From positions 1-24,477 of the IMG/VR virus record IMGVR_UViG_3300033145_002875: a DNA stretch of 24,477 nucleotides, one strand, 5' to 3'. Shown piece after piece: positions 12,555-24,477 of the stretch. Every line of letters starts with the position of its first letter. Positions within the stretch are counted from its first letter, which is position 1. Source of the DNA: a virus. Both the position numbers and the translations under genes were made by a program. The notes under the pieces are model-generated. The model was given only the letters and a program-made list of their open reading frames with translations. It did no database searches and was not told the DNA's origin.

Positions 12555-13149
12555 TGTCTCCTTTCATTTCTTCAAGATTTGTTAAAATTTCCCGACAGAG
12601 CCTCATGGCCTTCTGCCGCTCATCCACCATGTGCAGCACCATCCCCGTGCAGATCAACCGGTTCAGTTTCACCGCCTTTAGAATCAACGGGTCCGGCTCG
12701 AAATCAGCTACTCTCGGCCGTTTTAGGTGTTCCCGGCCCTTGGGTGTCAATCGCCAGACTTTCTCACTTGCCCCGGACAACGCCGGCCGACGACCGTGCT
12801 GCACCACCAGCCCCTTTCCCCGGTACCGCCGCATCAGCTTGTACACATAGCTTGTGGTGGTCCCGGCAAGCATGGCCAGTTCAGAGCATGAGAACGTGGG
12901 TTTAATGCGCATGCCTTTCCATATGCGGTCATTAATGGGGGCGCCTTTTCCCGGCAGGGGTTTGTCAACAAACTCAAAGGTCCCGTGCCCGATTTTTACC
13001 AATCTTCCGGTGCGGACCAGTTGGTCAATGGCATGCACAACTTGGCTTTTGTGGATACCGAGCGCTTTCTCGATTTGTTTTTTTCGGACCAGGCTGTTTG
13101 CTGCTGCATACCGGCAGACCGTATCCACAATTTTAGGTGTATCGTTCAT
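12541..13149 (-). CDS. Tandem winged-helix DNA-binding protein
   Basis: The 202-aa product contains two probable winged helices. Residues about 5-62 are VDTVCRYAAANSLVRKKQIE, then GIHKSQVVHAIDQLVRTGRL and a wing KIGHGTFEFV. Residues about 85-145 are FSCSELAMLAGTTTSYVYKL, RRYRGKGLVVQHGRRP and a wing VWRLTPKGREHLKRP. The C-terminal helical tail may dimerise. It starts by ATGA overlap with the MuB-like gene and so is expressed with the transposition proteins. It is likely an early regulator or accessory DNA-binding factor. The exact family is not known to me. Confidence 0.7.
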   Translation of the reverse strand: MNDTPKIVDTVCRYAAANSLVRKKQIEKALGIHKSQVVHAIDQLVRTGRLVKIGHGTFEFVDKPLPGKGAPINDRIWKGMRIKPTFSCSELAMLAGTTTSYVYKLMRRYRGKGLVVQHGRRPALSGASEKVWRLTPKGREHLKRPRVADFEPDPLILKAVKLNRLICTGMVLHMVDERQKAMRLCREILTNLEEMKGDNDDQ

Positions 13150-13874
13150 GGCCGCCTGCCTCCTTTAAGTTTTGATTTGGGACCTGTTTTTCGTTGTGGC
13201 AGAGATTTAACCATATCAAGCGTTGCGACATTATCACCACTGGTCCGAACCATCTTTGAGAGATCGCGCACACAAATATGCATCAGCCGAAAATCACCAT
13301 CAGATTTTTGTGATACAACGACGGCTGCGTCAGGCATTATTTTTATTTGAAACGCCTTTGCAGCGTATAAAAGAATATCTTCTGTGCATATGGGGCCGAA
13401 ATGAACGGATTGCGTCACGCGGCTCCATAATCGTCTGCGGCAACTAATCGCAGAGTAAAGGCTCTCCTCTCCGATAAATACGATGGGCGCTCCTGTAAGG
13501 TCATGAATATCCCTAAAATATTCAAACATATCCATCCGTTTAAGCCTGTCAGCCTCATCCACCAGAAGAATTCGCCGATGCTGTTTCAGTCTGTAAATAA
13601 CACGGTCCATACAGTCGCCGGCGCTTCTTGGTTCCATGCCGGTGAGTTCATTGCATAGAGACGCCAACATCTGCCGGTCTGTCATATTGTGCAGCACTCT
13701 GAAATATACGGCATCAGTATTCATTGCGTAACTCTCTGAAGCCTTAGACTTTCCTCGCCCGGCCATACCGTACACCACGGCGAGGCCGGGTTGGCCGTAT
13801 TCTGTGTCTTCCAGGACCCCCATGGCTTCCCGGAAAAGACTGACGTTTTGCGTAACCAGAAAAATTTTTTTCAC
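13146..13874 (-). CDS. B: MuB-like AAA+ ATPase for transposition target choice
   Basis: The 242-aa product is an AAA+ ATPase with Walker A GMAGRGKS (residues 36-43), Walker B RILLVDEAD (Asp106, Glu107) and an IVFIGEE sensor-type strand. Next to a MuA-type transposase this is the MuB role: ATP-dependent filament on target DNA, stimulation of strand transfer and target immunity. It lacks the N-terminal HTH of Mu B (312 aa), which explains the shorter length. The start is GTG (13872-13874) with GGAGG upstream. The basic C-terminal tail (RKTGPKSKLKGGRRP) probably contacts DNA. Confidence 0.85.
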   Translation of the reverse strand: MKKIFLVTQNVSLFREAMGVLEDTEYGQPGLAVVYGMAGRGKSKASESYAMNTDAVYFRVLHNMTDRQMLASLCNELTGMEPRSAGDCMDRVIYRLKQHRRILLVDEADRLKRMDMFEYFRDIHDLTGAPIVFIGEESLYSAISCRRRLWSRVTQSVHFGPICTEDILLYAAKAFQIKIMPDAAVVVSQKSDGDFRLMHICVRDLSKMVRTSGDNVATLDMVKSLPQRKTGPKSKLKGGRRP

Positions 13875-13903: not shown

Positions 13904-16102
13904 TTACCCGATTCCAAACGCCTGATTTTCCCTCGGCAATATTCCCCGAAGCCCGTCAAACCGCTCCTTGTAACTTTCCGCAAACACCCGGCTGTTCTCA
14001 AATTGCGCCATAAACACCGAATCATCGGAAGAGAGCGAAAACCCGTCCCGGTGCACGGCGTAAAAGCACCATTCATACCGGTCCAGGTCGGACCGGAAAA
14101 ACCCCGGCCGGTCCGGAGCCGTTTTCGATGTCGGCATATCCGCCAGCGTTTTGTCCGCCAGATCCTCAAGCCGCTTTACTTCCCCGGCCGGAAGTGCTTT
14201 TTGTTCCGGCTTGTCGTTAATGGCCGGGGTGGTCCGGATCACCGGCTGTTTTTGCACATACGGCAGGCTCTTCAACCCGTCCATATCCTCCATGGACGCC
14301 CCAAGGGCCAGCAGTTGCTGTTTGGTACGCTTGAGCATCCGGTTTTGCCGCGCCATCTCATACTTCACCCGATCGAGTCCGACCTGGTCCCCGAACGCCG
14401 CCGCCACCGGGTGAATGGCCTGTACCGCGTTGGCCTCGTCAACATACTGCCCGTCCGGCGTATAGACCCAGATCGTCTCCATATTCGCGGTATCGTACAT
14501 GGCGGTCATCGGGTGGGTGATGCCGTGCAGGGCGTCGGACTCGTAATCGATGCCGTAAAGCTTGACCCGGCATCGCCGGGGCGTGACGGTCTTACGCCAT
14601 AAAAATTCGTGGTTCAGCGCCTGAACATCCACCCCGGGACCGCGCCCCGCCTCAAGCACGGACAAGGGCGTATCTCCGCCCAGGCCGGAATGGGGCTGGT
14701 TGACATAGTAGGTGAAATAGGACCCGATCAGATGGGCCGCTTCCCGGATGTCCGGGATCCAGCCGGAGGTTTGGGCCTGGTGCCAGGCCTGGTGGAATTT
14801 TTCGTTTCGCATCATATGGGCGGGCTTGTCTGAGATGGACGTTCCGGAAAAGCTGGGGAACATCCGCTCGCCCTGTTCCTGCATGGTCAGATGGAACCGC
14901 TCGTTGATTTTGGCCTTTGCATTGAAGGGAATGGCAAACATTGTGGCTATGCCCAGGCGGGCGAACAGCCCGGTCATCTCCATCAGATCCACGTCCTCGC
15001 CCAGGAACACCTTGTTCTTAAAGGCCTTGCCGTTGTCCATATAGGCAACCTTGGGAATCATGCCCAGGAACATAATGGCCATACGCAGGGCCGAGGCCAC
15101 GGCGATGGTGTTTTCCGTGGGCATGAGCTGCCACCCCGCCGGAAACCGGCTCCGCCAGTCCATCCAGATAATCAGGGCCATGCGGCAGGGTTTGCCCGAT
15201 ACCGGATGCAGCACCTGGAAATTTAACACCTTCCCGTCGGCAACCACACAATCCCCGACGTTCAATTGATCCAGGTCCCGGGTGATATAGGACTGGAACT
15301 GGTCCTTGTACGCCTTCTCCCCGTCCCTGGCCAAGGCCAGCACATGCCCGTTCTTTTCCCCGTACTCCTTCAGCCACCGCCGGAACGTGTCGTCACTGGC
15401 TCTCTCATCAATCCCCAGGGCGTCAAGTGTGTACCGCGCCGCCCGGATGGACATGGCCACCGTGGGCCGCTGCTGGGACAGGTAGCATTTCAGCAACGCC
15501 TTTTTAGACTCTTCGGACAGGCTCCGGCTCCGCCATTTATTGGTGCCGTGAACTTTCCACCCCCCCCGGCCGTCGCACAGGGATACGTAGTTGTCCTTGC
15601 TTTTAAGCAGCTTTTTGTCCAGGGCGCGCAGGGTCTGGACGGCGACATCCCCAAGGGTCTCATGGACTTTGGGCATCAGTTGCCCGGCGTTATAGGCCAG
15701 TAAAAACGCGGCTGAAAATTCGCTTTTCTTTCCCCAGGGCGCGTTATTTGCCGCCTTTCGAAACGCATGGACCAGCCGGTATTTTGCCAGGCCGATCTCC
15801 CTGGCCGTGTCCGGTATCGCCGGCATGTCGTTGGGCAACACCGCCGGCAGGTTTTTCGGATCAACCGGAACCAGACCCCGTTTTTCCGCATGCACAACAG
15901 CCCCGGCTTGGCGCACATCCTCGGGCAAGAGCCGGAAGATGTAGCGCCGCTGTTTTCCGCCCCGCTTGGCCTTGGCCGTTGTCAGCCATCCTTCCTTCCG
16001 TGCCCTGAGTTGGATGGCCCGCTCGGTCTTTCCCATGGCCCTTGCGATGTCGCTTGCCGTGGGCTCGATTTCCCCGCCGTTGTTTTCGCGTAAGGGATCC
16101 AT
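13904..16102 (-). CDS. A: MuA-like DDE transposase
   Basis: The 732-aa product starts at ATG 16100-16102, which overlaps the upstream TAA (TAATG) and follows GGAGG. A frame 25 codons longer has no such signals. Domains in order are an N-terminal Mu-type winged helix (about 10-60, ASDIARAMGKTERAIQLRAR), I-beta/I-gamma end-binding domains (about 90-255), an RNase H-like core with VVADGK (Asp289), AYMDNGKAF (Asp356) and INERFH (Glu401), then a C-terminal beta domain and a basic tail. D-D spacing of 67 equals that of MuA (269/336). It catalyses replicative transposition together with the B ATPase. Confidence 0.92.
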   Translation of the reverse strand: MDPLRENNGGEIEPTASDIARAMGKTERAIQLRARKEGWLTTAKAKRGGKQRRYIFRLLPEDVRQAGAVVHAEKRGLVPVDPKNLPAVLPNDMPAIPDTAREIGLAKYRLVHAFRKAANNAPWGKKSEFSAAFLLAYNAGQLMPKVHETLGDVAVQTLRALDKKLLKSKDNYVSLCDGRGGWKVHGTNKWRSRSLSEESKKALLKCYLSQQRPTVAMSIRAARYTLDALGIDERASDDTFRRWLKEYGEKNGHVLALARDGEKAYKDQFQSYITRDLDQLNVGDCVVADGKVLNFQVLHPVSGKPCRMALIIWMDWRSRFPAGWQLMPTENTIAVASALRMAIMFLGMIPKVAYMDNGKAFKNKVFLGEDVDLMEMTGLFARLGIATMFAIPFNAKAKINERFHLTMQEQGERMFPSFSGTSISDKPAHMMRNEKFHQAWHQAQTSGWIPDIREAAHLIGSYFTYYVNQPHSGLGGDTPLSVLEAGRGPGVDVQALNHEFLWRKTVTPRRCRVKLYGIDYESDALHGITHPMTAMYDTANMETIWVYTPDGQYVDEANAVQAIHPVAAAFGDQVGLDRVKYEMARQNRMLKRTKQQLLALGASMEDMDGLKSLPYVQKQPVIRTTPAINDKPEQKALPAGEVKRLEDLADKTLADMPTSKTAPDRPGFFRSDLDRYEWCFYAVHRDGFSLSSDDSVFMAQFENSRVFAESYKERFDGLRGILPRENQAFGIG

Positions 16103-16800
16103 TATGCCTCCCGAAGGATTGCCGCCTTGGCTTCGTCCAGGCACAGCACCGCCGCTTCCCGGGACGTGGTTTTCCATTTTTGCGCCCGGGCGTCGCTCAC
16201 CGCGTTCAGGAGGGATTGGAGGCCGGATTTGAAATCGTCGGAAATCACCGTCTCACGGGCGATGCGGGTTTTAGTGCTCCCCAGCCGCTGTACCACCTCC
16301 GCCCCGACATACTCGCTCACCGTCCGTGCCACCAGGGCCGCCGTGATCCGGCCGTTGGGGGCGTGTGCAATCACGTGGCGCCATACGTCAAGCTGCTGGT
16401 CGGGTTCGAGACGGGTGAGGGGTCGGGCCTGGCGCTCGTTTTTTGGGAGGAGGCTTTCGGGGATTAACGGGATGTCGCTTTTTTCGGATTCATTTTGCGA
16501 CCCATGGGTCGCGTTTTTCAAATTCTTTATGACCTCTGTTGACGCGATATATCGTTGCGCATGCCGGATGTTCATCTCCCACAAATCCTTGCAATACCCC
16601 TCAAACGTCCGGTGGGTGCTGCGGTACAGCCGCTTTTCCCGGATTTCCGCCAGGGCCGAGCCCACCGCCACAAACCCAGTGAAATTCCGCTCGATCACGG
16701 TCTCCAGATCGGCCCGCCGCTTGTTCTCCTTCGATGACAGCGGTGAGATTTCAACCTCTTCGTCATCGTCATTTTTATAAATGGATAGTATGTCCGTCAT
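16102..16800 (-). CDS. ParB/KorB-like helical early protein
   Basis: The 232-aa product has a central DUF3102-type region (FTGFVAVGSALAEIREKRLY, THRTFEGYCKDLWEMNIRHA, QRYIASTEVIKNL) and then PKNERQARPLTRLEPDQQLD. These blocks are typical of mobile-element proteins with a ParB/KorB-like helix-turn-helix. AAAGGAGAT precedes ATG 16798-16800. Its TAA overlaps the transposase ATG, so translation is coupled. A role in phage DNA maintenance or transposition control is likely, but unproven. Confidence 0.7.
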   Translation of the reverse strand: MTDILSIYKNDDDEEVEISPLSSKENKRRADLETVIERNFTGFVAVGSALAEIREKRLYRSTHRTFEGYCKDLWEMNIRHAQRYIASTEVIKNLKNATHGSQNESEKSDIPLIPESLLPKNERQARPLTRLEPDQQLDVWRHVIAHAPNGRITAALVARTVSEYVGAEVVQRLGSTKTRIARETVISDDFKSGLQSLLNAVSDARAQKWKTTSREAAVLCLDEAKAAILREA

Positions 16801-16820: not shown

Positions 16821-17012
16821 TTAGTCCCTGTTTGCTTGATTTCCGTCATGGTGTTTGATATTTAACTTGAGGTTCCGATTTGTTTTTTCAATTCGGACAA
16901 GCGGCCGAATTTCTTTCATAAGGGCTTCAAAGTCCTTATCTTTTTTAGGTATCAACGGACTGTCGGGAGGGATATTGCATGGATCGTAAAAAACAATCTG
17001 ATTTTCAGTCAT
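16821..17012 (-). CDS. Small hypothetical early protein
   Basis: The 63-aa product begins MTENQIVFYDPCNIPPDSPL and has a basic C-terminus (NRNLKLNIKHH). AAAGGAGAT lies ahead of ATG 17010-17012. That leader is nearly identical over 20 bp to the leader of the following 232-aa gene, suggesting a duplicated ribosome binding site region. Its first 34 bp are antisense to the start of the plus-strand zinc-ribbon gene. No family recognised. Confidence 0.55.
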   Translation of the reverse strand: MTENQIVFYDPCNIPPDSPLIPKKDKDFEALMKEIRPLVRIEKTNRNLKLNIKHHDGNQANRD

Positions 17013-17296
17013 CTCATAATCTCCTTTCTTCAAAATACAAGGACACGCCTTATGGGCCTGCCTGTATTGAAATGGAAGCCGCTTGCTTAAAATGCGGCCA
17101 TATCTACAAAATAAAGATCCAGGAATCTGAAATAAGAAATGTCCTGTCTGAGGCACAGGCCGGGACCGCAATGATTGATGCGATACTTGCCCAGTCAGGC
17201 TGGGCAAGAACATTGGTTCAACGGAAAAATGGCCCCCTTGCTCTTTATTCCGTATGCCCCGACTGTGTTGAAAAAGATTTTCAAACATATTTCTAA
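16979..17296 (+). CDS. Zinc-ribbon protein on the plus strand
   Basis: The 105-aa product has two CxxC knuckles, ACLKCGHIYKIKI (Cys36, Cys39) and SVCPDCVEKDF (Cys93, Cys96), separated by a helical segment. It is a small zinc ribbon. GGGAGG lies 8 bp before ATG 16979. It opposes the early operon: its 5' end overlaps the start of the minus 63-aa gene by 34 bp, and its stop codon overlaps the stop of the minus I-gamma-like gene (CTAA). It is likely an inserted cargo gene expressed separately. Function unknown. Confidence 0.6.
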   Translation: MDRKKQSDFQSSHNLLSSKYKDTPYGPACIEMEAACLKCGHIYKIKIQESEIRNVLSEAQAGTAMIDAILAQSGWARTLVQRKNGPLALYSVCPDCVEKDFQTYF

Positions 17297-17505
17297 GCTC
17301 GCTGTAACGCTGTTTGGTGCTGAGCATTTTCACAGTATGCCTTCAACCACCGCCGAAGCGCCTCATCCGACGCCGCCACGGCAATCCCCTGCCGTTTCAG
17401 ATTAAACCGCGCCGCCCGGATCGCCATCATCATCGGCGGCCGGCACCGGTCCAGATAACATCTTAAAATTGCTTCTTTTATTGTCTTGCTGATCTGTTTC
17501 TTCAT
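17293..17505 (-). CDS. Free-standing transposase I-gamma-like DNA-binding domain
   Basis: The 70-aa product starts at ATG 17503-17505 behind AAGGAGG. Without gaps it aligns to residues about 194-252 of this phage's own transposase: KEAILRCYLDRCRPPMMMAI versus KKALLKCYLSQQRPTVAMSI, then ASDEALRRWLKAY versus ASDDTFRRWLKEY. About 29 of 59 positions are identical by eye. In MuA this is the I-gamma end-binding subdomain. A lone copy with its own ribosome binding site could bind phage ends or the enhancer and compete with the transposase, or it may be the remnant of a second transposase. It lies in the early operon. Confidence 0.7.
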   Translation of the reverse strand: MKKQISKTIKEAILRCYLDRCRPPMMMAIRAARFNLKRQGIAVAASDEALRRWLKAYCENAQHQTALQRA

Positions 17506-17587
17506 GGTGTCCTCCTTGTTCATTGAGTTGATTTGTGGTATTTGCTAAATTCTTTATCCCCCAGACGAATGAAAGGAACTCATCATC

Positions 17588-18145
17588 ATGAACCCCGAAA
17601 TCATCAATGGGATTATCTCCGCATGCCTCGGTTTTACAGGGGCAGTCATCGGCGGCGGCATCGGCGCAGCCGTCACCTTGACCCTGAGAAAAGAAAAATT
17701 TAAAAAAATCGTCTATGAAGAGCGTCTTGCCGCCTATAAAAAGATTCTCGGTCATGTAATTAAAATTTTCTTCTTTATTAATGTAGTTGCCAAGGTGTTC
17801 GACTCTGCGAAGTCCGCGACGCAGTTGAAAAAGTTGACTGACGAGGTCTTCGGTCTCTTTTTCAGCCTCGAAACGGCAAGGATGCTTGTCTCTAAGGATG
17901 TCAGCGAAAAAGCCGACGAGATCATTAAATTTCTTCCTGTCGCGTTCAAGAAACCAGAGCCGGAAAATAGCATCCAGGTTGGAAAGGATGCTGTATTTGC
18001 CGCGAATCTCATCAAGGATCTGGTTAATGCCATAAGAAGCGACTTGGGCACGGATGCGTTGTCTTACAGTATTGATAAAACGATTAAAGGGCTTGGGATA
18101 TTTATTCAAAATGACCGTTACGACAATAGACCCGCCGATAAATGA
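17588..18145 (+). CDS. Membrane-anchored helical protein (plus-strand cargo)
   Basis: The 185-aa product has one N-terminal TM segment (residues about 8-33, GIISACLGFTGAVIGGGIGA), then KFKKIVYEERLAAYKKIL, the start typical of many membrane-tethered helical proteins, and a soluble helical body. GAAAGGAA lies about 9 bp before ATG 17588. A 263-codon frame exists on the opposite strand but is low-complexity and cysteine/aspartate-biased over most of its length, so the plus strand is preferred. It sits against the direction of the early operon, like the zinc-ribbon gene. It could be a superinfection or defence factor, but nothing specific identifies it. Confidence 0.65.
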   Translation: MNPEIINGIISACLGFTGAVIGGGIGAAVTLTLRKEKFKKIVYEERLAAYKKILGHVIKIFFFINVVAKVFDSAKSATQLKKLTDEVFGLFFSLETARMLVSKDVSEKADEIIKFLPVAFKKPEPENSIQVGKDAVFAANLIKDLVNAIRSDLGTDALSYSIDKTIKGLGIFIQNDRYDNRPADK

Positions 18146-18868: not shown

Positions 18869-19078
18869 TCAGCTTGCCAGGCGCGAATACCATTCCGGGA
18901 ATATCTCGTGCAGATCCCTTTTGATGGTCTTGGCAATCTCGCGTTCGATATGCGCCGCCCGTTTATGTTTGTGGACCACCTTGTTGACCATGGTGGCGGA
19001 AACACCCCGCCGCGCCGCAATGGCGGTTTGGGTTTCACCGGCGTCCTCAATGGCGTGCTTGATTTTTCGTGGGATCAT
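18869..19078 (-). CDS. ner: Ner-like helix-turn-helix regulator
   Basis: The 69-aa product has an HTH (AIEDAGETQTAIAARRGVSA, TMVNKVVHKHKRAAHIEREI) and ends HEIFPEWYSRL. This resembles the Ner/Nlp family, whose members end in a similar 'P-x-x-W/Y' segment. In Mu, Ner is the first early gene and turns down the early and repressor promoters. Position here, at the head of the early block facing the repressor, agrees. AAGGAAG precedes ATG 19076-19078. It could also be a general XRE-type regulator. Confidence 0.7.
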   Translation of the reverse strand: MIPRKIKHAIEDAGETQTAIAARRGVSATMVNKVVHKHKRAAHIEREIAKTIKRDLHEIFPEWYSRLAS

Positions 19079-19085
19079 GTTGAGC

Positions 19086-19106
19086 TTCCTTTTTTGGTTT
19101 TGGGTT
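19086..19106. repeat. Leader repeat, diverged copy 0
   Basis: TTCCTTTTTTGGTTTTGGGT lies between the divergent starts of ner (minus) and the 141-aa gene (plus). It matches the matching stretch of copy 4 (20550-20574) at about 20 of 21 positions. It lacks the AACGTAG block seen in copies 1-4. Confidence 0.6.
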
Positions 19107-19116
19107 GGATTAATAA

Positions 19117-19542
19117 ATGGCTAAAAACAACTCTGACAAAAATGAGAACGATGCAGACCGGATTGTTTCCCATATGGTACATTCCCAATCCGCCGGATGT
19201 CCGTTCAATGGGTTTGGCCCATGTGCCGGAAGCAGGTGCAGGTTTTACGTGCTTGTCCCGCCGGATGAGGAAAACCGTGCATGCATGATAGCGGCGACAT
19301 ATCTGTCCATTCGGATGCAACATACCCTTCAACAACTGGAGTCTTTGGCTGACGTCGCCGGCAATCCGCATTGGCCTCAAATTTCCGCTTTGCCGATTCG
19401 AATCGTTGAATCAGCAATTCGGTCTCTGGACTCTTTGGACGAGATCGCAACCCATCCAAAGATTGACCGAGGTCTGAAGCAAGACGTTCTAAAAATGAAG
19501 CGTGAACTTCGTGCTCGTTTAAATGCTTTTGCTGAGGAATAA
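19117..19542 (+). CDS. Cysteine-motif small protein, cassette 1
   Basis: The 141-aa product contains CPFNGFGPCAGSRCRFYVLV with Cys28, Cys36, Cys41, followed by Cys56: four cysteines that could hold a metal or Fe-S cluster. The C-terminal half is helical (RIVESAIRSLDSLDEIATHP). The start ATG 19117 follows repeat copy 0 without a clear Shine-Dalgarno. It is on the plus strand between repeats 0 and 1. The cysteine pattern and normal composition argue that it is real. A minus ORF (from 19567) is antisense to it. Confidence 0.65.
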   Translation: MAKNNSDKNENDADRIVSHMVHSQSAGCPFNGFGPCAGSRCRFYVLVPPDEENRACMIAATYLSIRMQHTLQQLESLADVAGNPHWPQISALPIRIVESAIRSLDSLDEIATHPKIDRGLKQDVLKMKRELRARLNAFAEE

Positions 19543-19567
19543 TGTCGTGGTTTTCGGAGTCTGACAT
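19205..19567 (-). CDS. Minus-strand cassette ORF 1 (antisense to the 141-aa gene)
   Basis: ATG at 19565-19567 follows AAAAGGAGC in repeat copy 1 with GGAG-N7-ATG spacing, the same as in copies 2-4. The frame gives 120 aa, beginning MSDSENHDIIPQQKHLNEHE. Only the first 8 codons are outside the plus-strand 141-aa gene, and the rest looks like antisense translation. Translation start is well supported. A functional long product is not. Confidence 0.3.
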   Translation of the reverse strand: MSDSENHDIIPQQKHLNEHEVHASFLERLASDLGQSLDGLRSRPKSPETELLIQRFESAKRKFEANADCRRRQPKTPVVEGYVASEWTDMSPLSCMHGFPHPAGQARKTCTCFRHMGQTH

Positions 19568-19572
19568 ATGAT

Positions 19573-19620
19573 CGCTCCTTTTAACGTAGGTTTCTTTTTT
19601 TTGGCTTAGGGTTAAACGTC
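19573..19620. repeat. Leader repeat copy 1
   Basis: Contains CTCCTTTTAACGTAGG, a T-run and a GGGTTAAACG end, shared with copies 2-4. Read on the minus strand it supplies AAAAGGAGC seven bases before ATG 19567. On the plus side it precedes a coiled-coil frame. Confidence 0.85.
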
Positions 19621-19791
19621 AAGAATATTTGGAGATAGACGCACTTTCCGAGCGTCTTGAGAAAGTAGAAAAACAGATTCTCCGGAAACCTGAAAAACAG
19701 CAGGACCGGGCGGGTGTCCATCAGCGGAATAAGAAACTCCATTGATTTGCACCATGCCCCTTCTGATGTTTCTAAATATGAGGTGTTGCAT
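19612..19791 (-). CDS. Minus-strand cassette ORF 2
   Basis: A 59-aa frame begins at ATG 19789-19791 behind the repeat copy 2 ribosome binding site (GGAG-N7-ATG). It ends with TAA inside repeat copy 1, so it exactly spans the two repeats. The product (MQHLIFRNIRRGMVQINGVS, FQVSGESVFLLSQDARKVRL) has protein-like composition. It is antisense to the coiled-coil frame at 19629-19745. No family recognised. This is the most credible of the four minus ORFs together with ORF 3. Confidence 0.4.
   Translation of the reverse strand: MQHLIFRNIRRGMVQINGVSYSADGHPPGPAVFQVSGESVFLLSQDARKVRLSPNILDV
19629..19745 (+). pseudogene. Coiled-coil gene remnant, cassette 2
   Basis: A plus frame reads LEIDALSERLEKVEKQIL, a strongly heptad-patterned helix, then a basic tail, and stops at 19745. 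No ATG or GTG is available before the upstream TAG inside repeat copy 1. The only near-start is TTG at 19629 without a Shine-Dalgarno. The most likely reading is a small helical gene whose 5' end was replaced at the repeat, as expected if repeats recombine. A TTG-started 38-aa protein is possible. Confidence 0.4.
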
Positions 19792-19795
19792 AAGA

Positions 19796-19835
19796 TTGCT
19801 CCTTTTAACGTAGGTTTCTTTTTTTTGGTTTAACG
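19796..19835. repeat. Leader repeat copy 2
   Basis: Shares GCTCCTTTTAACGTAGGTTT, the T-run and GGTTTAACG with the other copies, but lacks the internal AGGGTTAA segment of copies 1 and 3. It carries the minus-strand ribosome binding site for ORF 2 and lies 20 bp upstream of the plus gene at 19856. Confidence 0.85.
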
Positions 19836-19855
19836 ATTTATGGAGATTAAAACTC

Positions 19856-20044
19856 ATGGCCTCATCAACCTGTATTAAATGCGGTGGGCACTCGTTTGAA
19901 ATCGTTATCAAAGAACCGCGAGGTTCTGATTATAAGCTTACGTTCGTCCAGTGCAGCTCATGCGGCGGTGTCGTTGGCGTAATGGATTATTACAGTATCG
20001 GTGCAAAACTTCATAAAATTGAGAAGAAGCTGGGAATTTCCTGA
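19856..20044 (+). CDS. Small zinc-ribbon protein, cassette 3
   Basis: The 62-aa product has two CxxC pairs, STCIKCGGHSFEIVIKE (Cys6, Cys9) and VQCSSCGGVVGVMDYY (Cys33, Cys36), a compact zinc ribbon, then a short helix KLHKIEKKLG. GGAG lies about 10 bp before ATG 19856. It begins just after repeat copy 2. The paired knuckles make this a real gene. Zinc ribbons of this size often bind nucleic acid or RNA polymerase. Confidence 0.75.
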   Translation: MASSTCIKCGGHSFEIVIKEPRGSDYKLTFVQCSSCGGVVGVMDYYSIGAKLHKIEKKLGIS

Positions 20045-20180
20045 CAACGCAGCATAGGCCGTGTTTTTCAGCGAATTCTTCAGCATGGTTCTCATACAGG
20101 AACATGGCCTCTGGAATTGCCATGTTTTCAGGGATTACGCAGTAATAACCGTCATGCAGGTTGCTTTCGGTGTTCGGCAT
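19938..20180 (-). CDS. Minus-strand cassette ORF 3
   Basis: An 80-aa frame starts at ATG 20178-20180 with the repeat copy 3 ribosome binding site (GGAG-N7-ATG). The first 45 or so residues (HDGYYCVIPENMAIPEAMFL, YENHAEEFAEKHGLCCVV) lie outside the plus zinc-ribbon gene and look like a genuine protein. The remaining third is antisense to that gene and is basic and unlike a protein. The original 3' end may have been replaced, or the two genes may truly overlap tail to tail. Unknown function. Confidence 0.45.
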   Translation of the reverse strand: MPNTESNLHDGYYCVIPENMAIPEAMFLYENHAEEFAEKHGLCCVVRKFPASSQFYEVLHRYCNNPLRQRHRRMSCTGRT

Positions 20181-20185
20181 AGTGG

Positions 20186-20230
20186 CGCTCCTTTTAACGT
20201 AGGTTTCTTTTTTTTGGTTTAGGGTTAAAC
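20186..20230. repeat. Leader repeat copy 3
   Basis: Matches copies 1 and 4 over CTCCTTTTAACGTAG, the T-run and the GGGTTAAAC end. Here the end forms the dyad GTTTA-N4-TAAAC (GTTTAGGGTTAAAC), an operator-like site. It carries the minus-strand ribosome binding site for ORF 3. Confidence 0.85.
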
Positions 20231-20248
20231 AGGCGAAAGGACTTAATA

Positions 20249-20476
20249 ATGACTGAAAAACAAGCGTCGGAATCATCCGAACCGTGCACGGAGGGCAAGC
20301 TCCTTGCACTTTTTACCGTAATCGTAGGCCTTTCGCGGGCTCTTGTTAAATCCGGGAACCTGGATCGTGACCTGCTACATGCTGAGCTTGACAATGGGCT
20401 TGGGTGGCTCCGTCGCCATGATCCCCATGCCTGTCAGGCGTTTGAAGATCTGTTGCCGATGCTGAGGGATATTTAG
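20249..20476 (+). CDS. Small helical protein, cassette 4
   Basis: The 75-aa product (GKLLALFTVIVGLSRALVKS, AELDNGLGWLRRHDPHACQA) is helical and soluble. GAAAGGA lies 8 bp before ATG 20249, just after repeat copy 3. No family recognised. It is on the plus strand, pointing toward the repressor gene. Confidence 0.65.
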   Translation: MTEKQASESSEPCTEGKLLALFTVIVGLSRALVKSGNLDRDLLHAELDNGLGWLRRHDPHACQAFEDLLPMLRDI

Positions 20477-20531
20477 ATCCCCACCCGGGTGGCACATCGT
20501 GTCGGTTCCAGAAGTTTTTTGCGTCTGACAT
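20346..20531 (-). CDS. Minus-strand cassette ORF 4
   Basis: A 61-aa frame starts at ATG 20529-20531 behind the repeat copy 4 ribosome binding site (GGAG-N7-ATG). The first 18 codons (SDAKNFWNRHDVPPGWGS) are outside the plus 75-aa gene. The rest is antisense to it and rich in His, Gln and Asp, unlike a normal protein. The initial residues resemble those of ORF 1 (MSDSEN versus MSDAKN), as expected if the repeat and start codon were copied together. Confidence 0.35.
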   Translation of the reverse strand: MSDAKNFWNRHDVPPGWGSKYPSASATDLQTPDRHGDHGDGATQAHCQAQHVAGHDPGSRI

Positions 20532-20536
20532 AGAAT

Positions 20537-20585
20537 CGCTCCTTTTAACGTAGATTTCTTTTTTGGTTTTGGGTTAAACGTCAAG
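20537..20585. repeat. Leader repeat copy 4, beside the repressor
   Basis: Matches the other copies over CGCTCCTTTTAACGTAG and GGGTTAAACGTCAAG, with a G-to-A change in the AGATTTC part and a shorter T-run. It ends 33 bp before the repressor ATG, so it probably overlaps the repressor promoter. Confidence 0.85.
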
Positions 20586-20618
20586 GTTTTGAACTACTAA
20601 TAATTGCAAATTGAAATA

Positions 20619-21092
20619 ATGTCAAGAAAAAATATTTCATTATTAAATATTATTGAAAGAATGAAGGCGGCCTCATCAATATCAAAAGATATTAAATTAG
20701 CCGAATCACTTGGTATTGCTCAAAGTACGCTTGCTGGATGGAAATCAAGGGGAACCATAGATATCTCAATAATTATTGATTTTTGCGATAATTTTAACGT
20801 TAATTTGGATTGGCTCCTTACTGGAAATGGCGAAAAATTTCGCACAAAAAAGGTTGATACACCTATCGATTCTAAAAAAGTCGTCGATATAGATGCCCAT
20901 CACGATGAAATAATCAGAGGCTTCGAAGATAAGGAAACCGCCAGGGAAATGAACCTGGATCTGTTAACGATTGAAAAATTAAACAAAACCGTTTTCAGGG
21001 AAACCGGGACCTATATAAAAGGGGTGGCAAACACACTTAAGTCCGTAATAAAAGAAACCCAGACGGAATTCAAAAAAAAGGGGAACGGGTAG
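20619..21092 (+). CDS. CI-type phage repressor (zero-frame product)
   Basis: The 157-aa product has an N-terminal CI-repressor HTH (LLNIIERMKAASSISKDIKL, AESLGIAQSTLAGWKSRG, NLDWLLTGNGEKF), then an acidic linker and helices (NLDLLTIEKLNKTVFRETGT). It is the lysogeny repressor, facing the end of the prophage and divergent from the Ner-led early genes, as c is in Mu. ATG 20619 lacks a Shine-Dalgarno. A TTG at 20604 is an alternative, and a near-leaderless mRNA is possible. It ends at TAG 21090-21092, but the frame continues in -1 after the slippery site at 21074-21080. The gene is much more AT-rich than the structural genes. Confidence 0.85.
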   Translation: MSRKNISLLNIIERMKAASSISKDIKLAESLGIAQSTLAGWKSRGTIDISIIIDFCDNFNVNLDWLLTGNGEKFRTKKVDTPIDSKKVVDIDAHHDEIIRGFEDKETAREMNLDLLTIEKLNKTVFRETGTYIKGVANTLKSVIKETQTEFKKKGNG

Positions 21093-21431: not shown

Positions 21432-21542
21432 ATGAAAAAATTTAATGGCGTGCTGGATGCAAAATGCTTCAGCCCATTTTTTTGGCCCGAAATCAAGACC
21501 GGGTATAAAACTACGTATCTTAATATTGGTTTAAAGTGGTAA
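21432..21542 (+). CDS. Possible 36-aa peptide with ribosome binding site in a hairpin
   Basis: ATG at 21432 opens 36 codons (MKKFNGVLDAKCFSPFFWPE, then IKTGYKTTYLNIGLKW) ending TAA. AAGGA lies 6 bp upstream but is buried in the stem at 21421-21430, so translation would be closed unless the stem melts. Aromatic-rich composition suggests a membrane-active or small regulatory peptide. Reality is uncertain. Confidence 0.3.
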   Translation: MKKFNGVLDAKCFSPFFWPEIKTGYKTTYLNIGLKW

Positions 21543-21574
21543 TTATTCTTATTAAAAATCATAGAGGTTCTATA

Positions 21575-22414
21575 ATGCCTAAAATTCAAGACTGCATGTC
21601 CATACTGTTATTTTTTACAGTATTATCATCAGCCAACCCGGCCGCAGCCGCGAATATTGAGCTTATGGATTTTTCCGGCCATGATGGCACTGTTTATACA
21701 ATTTTGTGGCTACATGACGCACCTAATGAGATCTCCAGTATGGAGATTGTTCTTGAATCAGAGTGTAACGTGCTTTTTATGAGAGACTTTGATGGCCTTG
21801 GTTTTTTGGCCAATGGAGACAATCTTGATCTTAACAGTGGATTTGGTTATTCAGATTGTGTTCTTGGCGTTCAGAATGCTCATCTATTTGCAAATTTCAA
21901 AGAACCCATTCCAAAAGGGGCAAGTGGGCCACTTGCATTGGTAAAAGTATTAATTTGGGGCCAAAGCGATTCAGAAATTTCTGTCGCAACACTAAATGGA
22001 GATGTTGCCGGATGGACAAAAAAAAATGCTGTATTCACATATTTAGACGAAGACAACGATCCACCGGAGGTTGTCGCTGGGAATGACAAGGTGATTATTT
22101 CAACAGTATACTTGGACGGAAGTCAGTCATACGATTTTGACGGGATGATTGTGGAATGGAGATGGGATCTCGTCCACAGGACCCACTCGGTTTACAATCA
22201 AACCCTGTTGGGGAAGACCGTTACCGTAACCGACCTGGCCACCGGGGTCTATGATGTTGCACTCACCGTAACCGATAATTCGGGTATTTCAGCAACAGAC
22301 CTCCTGACCTTATCCGCATCCGGCAGCCGGCAAATTCTTGGCGACGTCAACGGCAACAGCAAGCTCGACCTTCCGGATGCACTTGAAATTCTCAGGATGC
22401 TCACAGGGCAATAA
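21575..22414 (+). CDS. Secreted cohesin-like/PKD/dockerin-like protein
   Basis: The 279-aa product starts at ATG 21575 behind GAGG, rather than at an upstream frame start. It has a signal peptide (ending about NPAAAA, 26), then a cohesin-like beta region (27-145, with IPKGASGPLALVKVLIWG). Next is a PKD domain (about 163-248, DGSQSYDFDGMIVEWRWD, VYDVALTVTDNSG), and finally a single dockerin-type calcium loop (256-279, GDVNGNSKLDLPDALEILRM). Dockerins normally have two such loops, so this is a half dockerin. It is probably exported to the cell surface and is lysogenic-conversion cargo in the left end of the prophage. The PKD and dockerin calls are firm, the cohesin call weaker. Confidence 0.75.
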   Translation: MPKIQDCMSILLFFTVLSSANPAAAANIELMDFSGHDGTVYTILWLHDAPNEISSMEIVLESECNVLFMRDFDGLGFLANGDNLDLNSGFGYSDCVLGVQNAHLFANFKEPIPKGASGPLALVKVLIWGQSDSEISVATLNGDVAGWTKKNAVFTYLDEDNDPPEVVAGNDKVIISTVYLDGSQSYDFDGMIVEWRWDLVHRTHSVYNQTLLGKTVTVTDLATGVYDVALTVTDNSGISATDLLTLSASGSRQILGDVNGNSKLDLPDALEILRMLTGQ

Positions 22415-22515
22415 TGCCTGAAATTTGTTTCGGACTTTCGAAAAAGCTTAAATAGGTCAAGAATGCCCGTAAACGCTTATTAATAAAGACATCACGTAAA
22501 ATCAGGATAAATTTT

Positions 22516-22561
22516 CCCGTTTCGTTTTCATTTCGTTTTCTAAACGATAAAGCCCGAAACG
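22516..22561. repeat. TTTCGTTTTC direct and CCCGTTTCG/CCCGAAACG repeats
   Basis: In the 172-bp gap after the dockerin-like gene, TTTCGTTTTC occurs at 22520-22529 and 22531-22540 (11-bp period). CCCGTTTCG (22516-22524) pairs with CCCGAAACG (22553-22561): CGTTTCG is the inverted form of CGAAACG. It may be an operator/promoter for the downstream cargo genes or a transposase-binding cluster. Confidence 0.6.
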
Positions 22562-22586
22562 ATTTTCACCAAAAAGAGGCCCTTAA

Positions 22587-22871
22587 ATGTCCAAAAAAAT
22601 AAGATCCGAAATCGCCGAGATCCTCAACACCACCTTCACCCCGGAAACCTTCCACCCGGAAAATATCCACCAAAACCGGTTAACACCCCCCGAAACCCAC
22701 GACCCCAACACAATCCGCTGGTGGGCCGAGGCCGAAAGCGGCCGCATCGCCAGCGCCATCGGCATGACCATGTCCGATTTTATCAAACGCCACAATAAAG
22801 GGCTTACGCAAAAAATATTCGACAACAACCTCGGCTGGCAGTTTCATGATAAAAATCAAACTGTCATTTAG
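22587..22871 (+). CDS. 94-aa hypothetical protein upstream of HsdR-N gene
   Basis: The product begins MSKKIRSEIAEILNTTFTPE, has a His/Pro/Asn-rich middle (TPPETHDPNTIRWWAEAESG) and a helical end (SAIGMTMSDFIKRHNKG, IFDNNLGWQF). GAGG lies 7 bp before ATG 22587. It is much more GC-rich than the following gene despite being only 33 bp upstream, suggesting separate origins. No family recognised. Proximity suggests co-expression with the nuclease-domain gene. Confidence 0.6.
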   Translation: MSKKIRSEIAEILNTTFTPETFHPENIHQNRLTPPETHDPNTIRWWAEAESGRIASAIGMTMSDFIKRHNKGLTQKIFDNNLGWQFHDKNQTVI

Positions 22872-22904
22872 AAAATTAAACCACTATAATTTGGAGGAAC
22901 TAAA

Positions 22905-23981
22905 ATGAGTTTTGATGAAAAAATCATGGCACTTGCTCAACGTTTACCAAAGATTGTGGACCATTTAGATACAGAAGAGGCGACAAAAAACGCATTGGTA
23001 ATGCCTTTTATTGCCGCCCTTGGATATGACGTTTTTAACCCAAAAGAAGTGGTTCCAGAGTTTACAGCGGATGTCGGCACAAAAAAAGGTGAAAAAGTAG
23101 ATTACGCTATTATGAAAGATGGTGAGACTATCTTTTTAATTGAGTGTAAAAAAAGTGGGTCTGATCTTTCAAAAGAAAATATGAGTCAGTTATATCGCTA
23201 TTTTAATGTCACCAAGGCTCGTATTGCAATTCTTACCAATGGAGTTCAGTATTGGTTTTATTCTGACATTGAAGAGCTTAACAAAATGGATGACAGACCT
23301 TTTTTAGAGCTTAATTTAAAAAATCCCAAAGGGAACGCGCTATTTGAAGTAAAAAAGATGGCAAAGGATGGCTTTGACCTTGATAATATGTTGAGTACGG
23401 CTAGCGAGCTTAAATATATATCTGAAATCCAAAAGTGTTTATCTTCACAATACGAATTGCCGGATGAAGATTTTGTCCGCTTTTTCTTTATGAAAGCTTT
23501 ACCAGGTGGCCGTTTTACGGCATCTATGAAAGAACAGTTTTCGCCTATGGTATTAAAAGCCTTTCATCAATTTGTGAGTGATAAGGTTAGTGATCGTCTT
23601 CGATCTGCACTTGACAGCGAAAAAGGATCTGCCGAAAACAACAAAGAAAATGCTGAAGAAAACAATATCGAAGAACCTATGAATAATGGAATTATAACAA
23701 CAGATGAAGAAATAGAGGGGTTTCAAATTGTTAGAGCAATTGCTGCGAGAGATGTTAAACCCGAACGAATTGTTCATAGGGACACAAAATCATATATGGG
23801 GATACTGTTTGATGACAATAATAGAAAACCGATTTGCCGCCTCTGGCTTAACACGAAGCAAAAATATATTGGTTTGATTGACAAAGATAAAAACGAGTTA
23901 AGAATCCCAATCGATTCAACAACTGACATATATAAACATTCTGATCAGCTACTCCAAACGATCGCATCTTATGAACAATAA
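22905..23981 (+). CDS. Orphan HsdR N-terminal-domain (PD-(D/E)xK) protein
   Basis: The 358-aa product has a type I restriction R-subunit N-terminal domain. KVDYAIMKDGETIFLIECKK gives Asp66, Glu80-x-Lys82, and ENMSQLYRYF gives the Gln95-x3-Tyr99 motif that follows the nuclease core in HsdR. There is no helicase, HsdM or HsdS. The C-terminal third (RIVHRDTKSYMGILFDD, CRLWLNTKQKYIGLIDKDKN) is a beta-rich domain often fused to this module. GGAGG lies before ATG 22905. As prophage cargo it may cut foreign DNA or act in superinfection exclusion, possibly with the 94-aa protein. The catalytic residues look intact, but the target is unknown. Confidence 0.8.
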   Translation: MSFDEKIMALAQRLPKIVDHLDTEEATKNALVMPFIAALGYDVFNPKEVVPEFTADVGTKKGEKVDYAIMKDGETIFLIECKKSGSDLSKENMSQLYRYFNVTKARIAILTNGVQYWFYSDIEELNKMDDRPFLELNLKNPKGNALFEVKKMAKDGFDLDNMLSTASELKYISEIQKCLSSQYELPDEDFVRFFFMKALPGGRFTASMKEQFSPMVLKAFHQFVSDKVSDRLRSALDSEKGSAENNKENAEENNIEEPMNNGIITTDEEIEGFQIVRAIAARDVKPERIVHRDTKSYMGILFDDNNRKPICRLWLNTKQKYIGLIDKDKNELRIPIDSTTDIYKHSDQLLQTIASYEQ

Positions 23982-23991
23982 TTTTGAACCA

Positions 23992-24063
23992 ATATGGTGC
24001 AATAAAAAAAGCCCGTTTTCCGGGGCCGCAAACTGAAAGCAAACTTCTCACATACGGTGCAAT
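23992..24063. repeat. Direct repeat ATAYGGTGCAAT, 60 bp apart
   Basis: ATATGGTGCAAT (23992-24003) and ATACGGTGCAAT (24052-24063) differ at one base, and each is followed by A/T-rich DNA. They lie in the gap between the last cargo gene and the prophage end. They could be transposase end-binding sites like the L sites of Mu. No other copy was noted. Confidence 0.45.
24004..24026 (-). terminator. Rho-independent terminator facing into the prophage
   Basis: On the minus strand the sequence CCCG-GAAAA-CGGGC is followed by TTTTTTTA, a short GC stem with a purine loop and a T-run. It would stop transcription entering from the disrupted host gene before it runs antisense to the HsdR-N gene. The stem is only 4 bp, so strength is uncertain. 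Confidence 0.5.
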
Positions 24064-24130
24064 TTTCGTCCGGAATCAGCTAATTTTTTTAGCTTGCCTC
24101 CACGACAAAAAAATACACTAAAACCCATCT

Positions 24131-24204
24131 AATCCCTTAATATCCCGTCATTTCCCGCCCATTCCCATCAAATTTCAACCAATCCCACTTTTTCTCATAT
24201 TCCC
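24131..24204. other. Prophage left end region with 10-bp-phased TCCC array
   Basis: TCCC or a one-base variant recurs exactly every 10 bp: 24133, 24143, 24153, 24163, 24173 (TTTC), 24183 and 24193 (TCTC), with another TCCC at 24201. The host gene frame to its right loses its family pattern close to this array. If the TG...CA end rule of Mu applies, the last phage base would be 24197. The exact border cannot be fixed without the other end. Confidence 0.5.
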
Positions 24205-24477
24205 TGCTAAATGATAGTCATCGGCAAAATCAATGCTTAAAAGATCTTTTTGTATATTGCTGTTCTGCTCGGACCAGGTCTTGCCGCCGTCTCTGGTATG
24301 CAGGATTATTCCACCGTTTCCGCAGATCCATCCGTTCCGATCGTCACCGAAACTCACGGAAAACAGAGGCTCGTGGGTATTGCTCGGCATTTGTTTCCAG
24401 CTTTCTCCGCCGTCGGTGGAACGATAAAACCTGCCCCGCTCGCCCACCATGATATAAATCTCGTGGGAGAGCATCAT
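24175..24477 (-). pseudogene. Host Ycf48/BNR-repeat protein, cut by the prophage and the window edge
   Basis: The 100-codon frame contains two Ycf48/BNR-type repeats, VGERGRFYRSTDGGESWKQM and GNGGIILHTRDGGKTW, each with the Asp-box-like STDGG / TRDGGKTW pattern. The third repeat starts normally (LLSIDFADDYH) but then runs into LAGNMRKSGIG and a stop, where the family expects GWAVG-G-ILHT. The 3' part is therefore probably displaced by the insertion. The 5' end lies beyond the window. Such proteins are beta-propeller factors, often periplasmic and near RND transporters in Desulfobacterota. A naturally short protein is the alternative. Confidence 0.65.

Follow-up and report, generated by a model that had tools for sequence, protein, structure and literature searches.

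What is encoded in the 1.5 kb between the repressor gene and ner of a Mu-like prophage, where four near-identical repeats of ~45 bp, with a diverged fifth at ner, are interspersed with small open frames that face each other across the same DNA, and which strand do the repeats serve? The sequence analyzed here (the window) comprises the 24,477 bases of a virus record, and all coordinates are window positions. We consider that the interval is probably an enlarged version of the two-strand immunity and early region described for phage Fc02, in which a translation leader, reminiscent of the start-associated sequences (SAS) of mycobacteriophages, precedes each early-strand gene.

The prophage and its repeated leader

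By gene content, the window is a Mu-like prophage with capsid, portal, and terminase genes. It has the combination that marks Mu-like transposable phages, namely a DDE transposase A with an AAA+ B protein, a Mu-type terminase, and Ner-like and CI-like regulators. A phrog_2345 (CII-like) gene is a neighbor shared by the window and the relatives L195, L163, and L161. The features relevant to the argument are as follows.

13146-13874, minus strand: AAA+ B protein
13904-16177, minus strand: transposase A
18869..19078, minus strand: ner, Ner-like HTH regulator on the early strand (phrog_769 transcriptional repressor, E 1.4e-9; Pfam HTH_35, 8.8e-6)
19083..19106, minus strand: diverged leader copy before ner (AACCCAAAACCAAAAAAG), matching the repressor-proximal copy at 92% over 24 nt
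19117..19542, plus strand: p141, Cys4 and helical protein of the lysogeny strand, with homologues in L189, L163, and L161
19205..19567, minus strand: m4, early-strand ORF antisense to p141 (register open in relatives, wobble constraint, SD leader)
19568..19617, minus strand: leader of m4, A-rich with AAAAGGAG (repeat search, SD-N7-ATG)
19612..19791, minus strand: m3, from its leader to a stop inside the next leader; a doubtful gene (no homologue found; codon model against its frame)
19620..19745, plus strand: rem, start-less E/K-rich frame ("coiled-coil remnant"), ambiguous
19792..19835, minus strand: leader of m3 (repeat search, SD-N7-ATG)
19856..20044, plus strand: zn, 62-aa zinc-ribbon protein of the lysogeny strand (homologue 71% identical in L195; codon posterior 0.96)
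19938..20180, minus strand: m2, 80-aa early-strand gene (L195 homologue; codon posterior 0.998 in the non-overlapping part)
20181..20230, minus strand: leader of m2 (repeat search, SD-N7-ATG)
20249..20476, plus strand: p75, 75-aa helical orphan protein of the lysogeny strand (codon posterior 0.74-0.91)
20346..20531, minus strand: m1, a putative gene whose ORF lies opposite the last part of p75 (SD leader only; codon model ambiguous)
20532..20581, minus strand: leader of m1, adjoining the repressor gene (repeat search, SD-N7-ATG)
20597..20625, minus strand: candidate early promoter TTGACA-17-TATTAG, found by eye, with its -35 over the repressor start codon
20604..21092, plus strand: CI-like repressor, ATG probably at 20620 (Pfam Phage_CI_repr, E 4.1e-14)

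The repeats go far beyond chance. With up to three mismatches allowed, the window contains four matches to CTCCTTTTAACGTAGGTTTC, as against none in 100 shuffles, and self-BLAST of the repeat gives E values down to 5e-19; the preliminary description, which placed four copies and a diverged one between repressor and Ner, was accurate here. From start to start, the copies lie 224, 389, and 351 bp apart, and two of them are identical at 35/35 positions. Repeat searches found no inverted repeats within the leaders, and the predicted folding of their RNA is no better than that of shuffled sequences.

Read on the minus strand, each of the four copies terminates in AAAAGGAG-N7-ATG. The pattern AAAGGAG-N7-ATG occurs five times in the whole 24.5 kb, four of these inside the repeats, against a shuffle mean of 0.06, and the bases between SD and ATG vary (GATCAT, AATCTT, GCCACT, GATTCT), with only the last T constant; the exact spacing despite differing bases noted earlier is thus confirmed. 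The copy before ner has 18 nt exactly in common with the copy at 20532-20581. Because the SD-N7-ATG spacing is fixed in 4/4 copies, the ner leader is related, and distances to the plus-strand starts are variable, the repeat is best read as a leader of early-strand genes, composed of AAAAGGAGC and an A-rich upstream part.

A different reading takes the repeats as operators for repressor or Ner, or as a Mu-type transposition enhancer, in which case the ribosome-binding site and ATG would be incidental. In Mu, the operators and the enhancer are repeated AT-rich elements between c and ner; the present repeats likewise lie between repressor and ner, and they contain CTTTT and TTAACGT/TTAAACGT motifs. 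Such a reading does not account for an SD-to-ATG distance held constant while the intervening bases drift, nor for the fact that every copy heads an early-strand frame, two of these being conserved genes, and spacings of 224-490 bp are unlike a compact operator. We therefore regard it as unlikely, although operator and leader functions can coexist in one repeat.

Small genes on the two strands

Whether prokaryotes have protein genes that overlap in antisense is disputed, and few examples have evidence at the level of conservation. Taken by itself, the openness of antisense frames in the window could readily occur by chance (P 0.10-0.87) and constitutes no evidence; what speaks for the minus-strand genes comes from the comparison of sequences with relatives. 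All four plus/minus frame pairs share the same antisense register, with minus codon position 2 over the plus wobble position. This is the register least often open in the genes of this phage (0.22 of positions versus 0.48 and 0.69).

The strongest case is zn/m2. Homologues of both genes, convergent and with a 3' overlap of 53 nt, are present in the contig L195 (terminase locus L051, 54% identical to the terminase of the window); in the window, the final 107 nt of m2 overlap the end of zn. The two m2 proteins are 50% identical over the alignment, with 16/26 residues identical in the non-overlapping core (GYxxVIPENMAIP), and nucleotide substitutions in the non-overlapping part are distributed 8/5/15 over the codon positions, favoring the third, which argues that m2 is protein-coding. 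Identical residues are encoded by identical codons more often inside the shared overlap than outside it, both for zn (8/11 versus 4/16, p 0.02) and for m2 (9/9 versus 9/19, p 0.01), in tests devised post hoc, after the data had been seen, and with modest p values. On this comparative evidence, both partners are protein-coding and form a conserved convergent, antisense-overlapping pair. The L195 pair is situated between a Ner-like gene and the phrog_2345 gene, a site occupied in phage B3 by ORF16, also between Ner-like and CII-like genes. A promoter-like TATAAT lies just upstream of the L195 zn, between it and the CII-like gene, and the leader of the L195 m2 is unrelated to the repeated leader of the window. 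AlphaFold models of m2 and p141 (pLDDT 52 and 59) are too poor for fold searches.

The second pair, p141/m4, has homologues of p141 in L189 and L163 (37-39% identical) and in L161 (35%), in each case on the strand opposite transposase A and, in L163 and L161, adjoining the phrog_2345 gene. Searches for p141 among phage records, plasmid records, and 398 genomes from the phylum to which L006 belongs gave no match, negatives that are weak since the host group of the window falls outside these. The antisense register of m4 is open over the C-terminal part of p141 in 4/4 homologous loci (the window and all three relatives), the probabilities of openness given the p141 protein being 0.055, 0.009, 0.017, and 0.094. 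In a test likewise devised post hoc, p141 shows more wobble-position conservation than a synonymous null within the overlap (z summed over frames, 1.6-4.1; 3.3-5.6 for L163-L189), but not in the non-overlapping N terminus (z -2.2 to -0.9; 0.3-1.7 for L163-L189). In L161, the ATG of the antisense gene directly follows the stop codon of the CII-like gene that precedes it (TAG|ATG), and the gene has an SD-like GAGGGGG; that of L163 has GAGG at a fitting distance and extends for ~42 codons outside the overlap. From these alignments, m4 is very likely a gene. The wobble constraint could come from an RNA element rather than an antisense protein, an alternative that fails for m2, the non-overlapping part of which is protein-coding.

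With zn/m2 found in L195 and p141/m4 in L163, L189, and L161, two or more of the four cassettes are, by comparison with one to three relatives per pair that are 30-71% identical (L163 and L189 not being independent), conserved convergent, antisense-overlapping gene pairs. The proposals that small genes on both strands converge and overlap, and that translation from the minus-strand starts is under selection, are upheld to this extent, strongly for m2 and with good support for m4. The plus-strand frames on which they drew (19117-19542, 19856-20044, 20249-20476, and the start-less frame ending at 19745) are all present.

Conserved pairing, as judged from these relatives, is confined to zn/m2 and p141/m4, leaving p75/m1 (cassette 4) and rem/m3 (cassette 2) as candidate pairs. 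By codon use, p75 is coding; no homologue was found in the relatives searched. As described previously, m3 runs from its start at 19791 beside one repeat to a stop at 19612 within the next; it has no homologue in the relatives searched, and the codon model speaks against its frame. The frame rem had been taken for a plus-strand gene that lost its start at a repeat. The start is indeed absent, whereas the status of rem as a gene is ambiguous: the codon model cannot separate it from its mirror frame, and the relatives searched contain no homologue. Because m3 lacks codon-use support and the plus frame has no start, cassette 2 is possibly decayed or a non-coding spacer.

Relatives without the repeat and competing readings

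Mu-like relatives were found by terminase alignment scans (up to 83% identical, as contigs without the early region) and by transposase A alignment scans (42-49% identical), whereas single-protein scans with A and with the repressor found none. The contigs with the closest terminases, L011 and L012 (83% and 81% identical), both end before the early region. The preliminary description had proposed comparing the repeat with related phages; in the event, it is absent from all Mu-like relatives found, including those that carry the same gene pairs. Exact scans gave 0 matches in viral_contigs and, in genome_contigs, two isolated single matches (in Aquimarina and an alphaproteobacterium), approximately the number expected by chance, with no second array. 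Early-region repeats in L158, L121, L165, and L185 were considered as leader arrays and rejected, being of other kinds. With no repeat-bearing relative among those compared, the repeats are, by sequence, specific to the lineage of the window.

These results bear directly on the earlier idea of a modular array, in which the leaders are homology sites for the gain, loss, and swapping of cassettes between phages. Its modular aspect stands: two of the four cassettes are recognized in other phages, each time singly, and are stacked here (zn/m2 as in L195, p141/m4 as in L163, L161, and L189). Near-identity of the leader copies and the decayed appearance of one cassette would also fit. Recombination at the leaders fares less well, as the relatives with the same pairs have no repeat, the L195 m2 has a different leader, and no second array was found in either contig collection; we find it rather improbable that the leaders act in this way. 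Relatives without the repeat and the unrelated L195 leader indicate that the leader spread or was homogenized within the lineage instead of moving along with the cassettes.

A further possibility is that the leaders form a trans-acting switch. Lysogenic transcripts would be antisense through at least one near-identical leader, and any lysogeny RNA, carrying an anti-SD (CGCUCCUUUUAACGUAGGUUUC), would thus be able to pair with all early-gene leaders. This would also account for the ~35 nt upstream of the SD staying identical. Were it true, one prophage transcript would silence every early small gene, both in cis and on a superinfecting phage; we think the chances of this decidedly slim.

Least probable of all is that real genes exist on the plus strand only, with the repeat acting as their moron promoter or leader and the minus ORFs as antisense frames that merely happen to be open behind it. 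In its favor, homologues and good codon scores are on record for p141 and zn, antisense openness in the window is unremarkable, and zn of L195 has a promoter-like TATAAT of its own. Against it, the m2 homologue is conserved where nothing overlaps it, all four loci keep the m4 register open and under constraint, and the repeat spacing is fixed to the minus starts and not to the plus starts.

Known systems and neighboring genes

In Fc02, a B3-like, Mu-like phage of Pseudomonas, early gene 10 overlaps the lysogeny-strand gene olg1 antisense, and a lysogenic transcript of ~1.7 kb from promoter pC1, upstream of olg1, spans olg1/olg2 and the repressor gene and is antisense to both ner and gene 10 (PMC9936078). 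Olg1 and Gp10 both exclude superinfecting phages, and expression and exclusion assays exist (PMC9936078). The window resembles Fc02 in being Mu-like, with small lysogeny-strand genes upstream of the repressor, the ner early operon opposite, and an early gene antisense to a lysogeny gene near ner or a CII-like gene; that both partners are coding is found for zn/m2 and supported for p141/m4. The position of pC1 upstream of olg1 is likewise paralleled by the TATAAT of L195. The differences are that Fc02 has one early gene against olg1/olg2, behind ner, whereas the window has four leader-headed cassettes, two of them conserved pairs, between repressor and ner; that a repeated leader, present here before each early-strand frame, is not mentioned in the parts of that study consulted (PMC9936078); and that the array is known from its sequence, Fc02 also from expression and exclusion assays. 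No window protein matched B3, the type phage of the family of Fc02, above noise in tblastn, and the two regions therefore have the same layout but different genes.

In the Fc02-like arrangement that we favor, the lysogeny strand has the small genes p141, zn, and p75 ahead of the repressor and pointing the same way. The lytic strand has the small early genes m4, m2, probably m1, and perhaps m3, with ner and the transposition genes downstream of them, and each lysogeny gene converges on an early gene and overlaps its 3' end. At least p141/m4 and zn/m2 are conserved, exchangeable units, and one A-rich leader with a strong ribosome-binding site at fixed spacing would have been copied before every early-strand gene in this lineage. 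On induction, the putative promoter at 20625-20597, which is absent from the output of a consensus promoter scan, would give a single early transcript, m1-m2-m3-m4-ner-A-B; the A-rich leader and strong SD would provide each small gene with its own efficient start, and all would thus be strongly translated once that transcript appears. In the lysogen, plus-strand transcription of p141, zn, p75, and the repressor would pass through the same DNA (no plus-strand promoter was found in the window). Roles in superinfection exclusion may be envisaged by analogy with Fc02. That two unrelated pairs, each also seen in other phages, occupy the same kind of site suggests repeated recruitment by Mu-like switches of lysogeny/lytic partners with DNA in common. 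The shared leader, for its part, is a well-defined example, open to testing, of a translation signal that was copied and links unrelated early genes.

The leader also recalls the SAS and extended SAS (ESAS) of cluster K mycobacteriophages, for which a role in translation initiation was proposed (PMC3203893). In both cases, an SD-bearing repeat lies within a few bases, at a near-fixed short distance, of the start codons of several small non-structural genes that are unrelated to one another and for the most part point the same way. The SAS are 13 bp long (GGGATAGGAGCCC), with 11-19 copies scattered over half a genome (PMC3203893), whereas the window leader is ~45 bp, A-rich, and present in four to five clustered copies with antisense genes between them. 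It departs from the SAS consensus and is unrelated to it beyond GGAGC, and, unlike the ESAS with their 17-bp imperfect inverted repeat upstream, the window leaders contain no inverted repeat.

Morons are lysogenically expressed accessory genes with their own promoter, usually free-standing and with their own terminator. The lysogeny-strand genes are similar in being small accessory genes inside an early region, with promoter-like sequence of its own before the L195 zn, but differ in overlapping early genes and in having no terminator-like site between partners.

Further genes surround the array. A 76-aa ORF at 17293-17523 (minus strand) shows homology to an internal part of transposase A, its 27 tblastn matches falling inside A of relatives, and represents a partial duplicate upstream of A. 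Converging on this fragment is a lysogeny-strand gene at 16979-17296 (plus strand), an accessory gene opposed to the early operon, whose Cys-rich 105-aa product is 41% identical to that of L122 2881-3192 (minus strand), located between A and B and converging on A. At 17588-18145 (plus strand), also on the lysogeny strand inside the early region, lies a 185-aa probable membrane protein that is coding by codon use and has no homologue among the loci of the relatives. To the right of the repressor (21536-24477) are a protein with a dockerin-like C-terminal repeat and an HsdR-N domain protein (Pfam E 4e-15), and the window ends in a repeat protein resembling a host gene, such that the record may run into the host chromosome.
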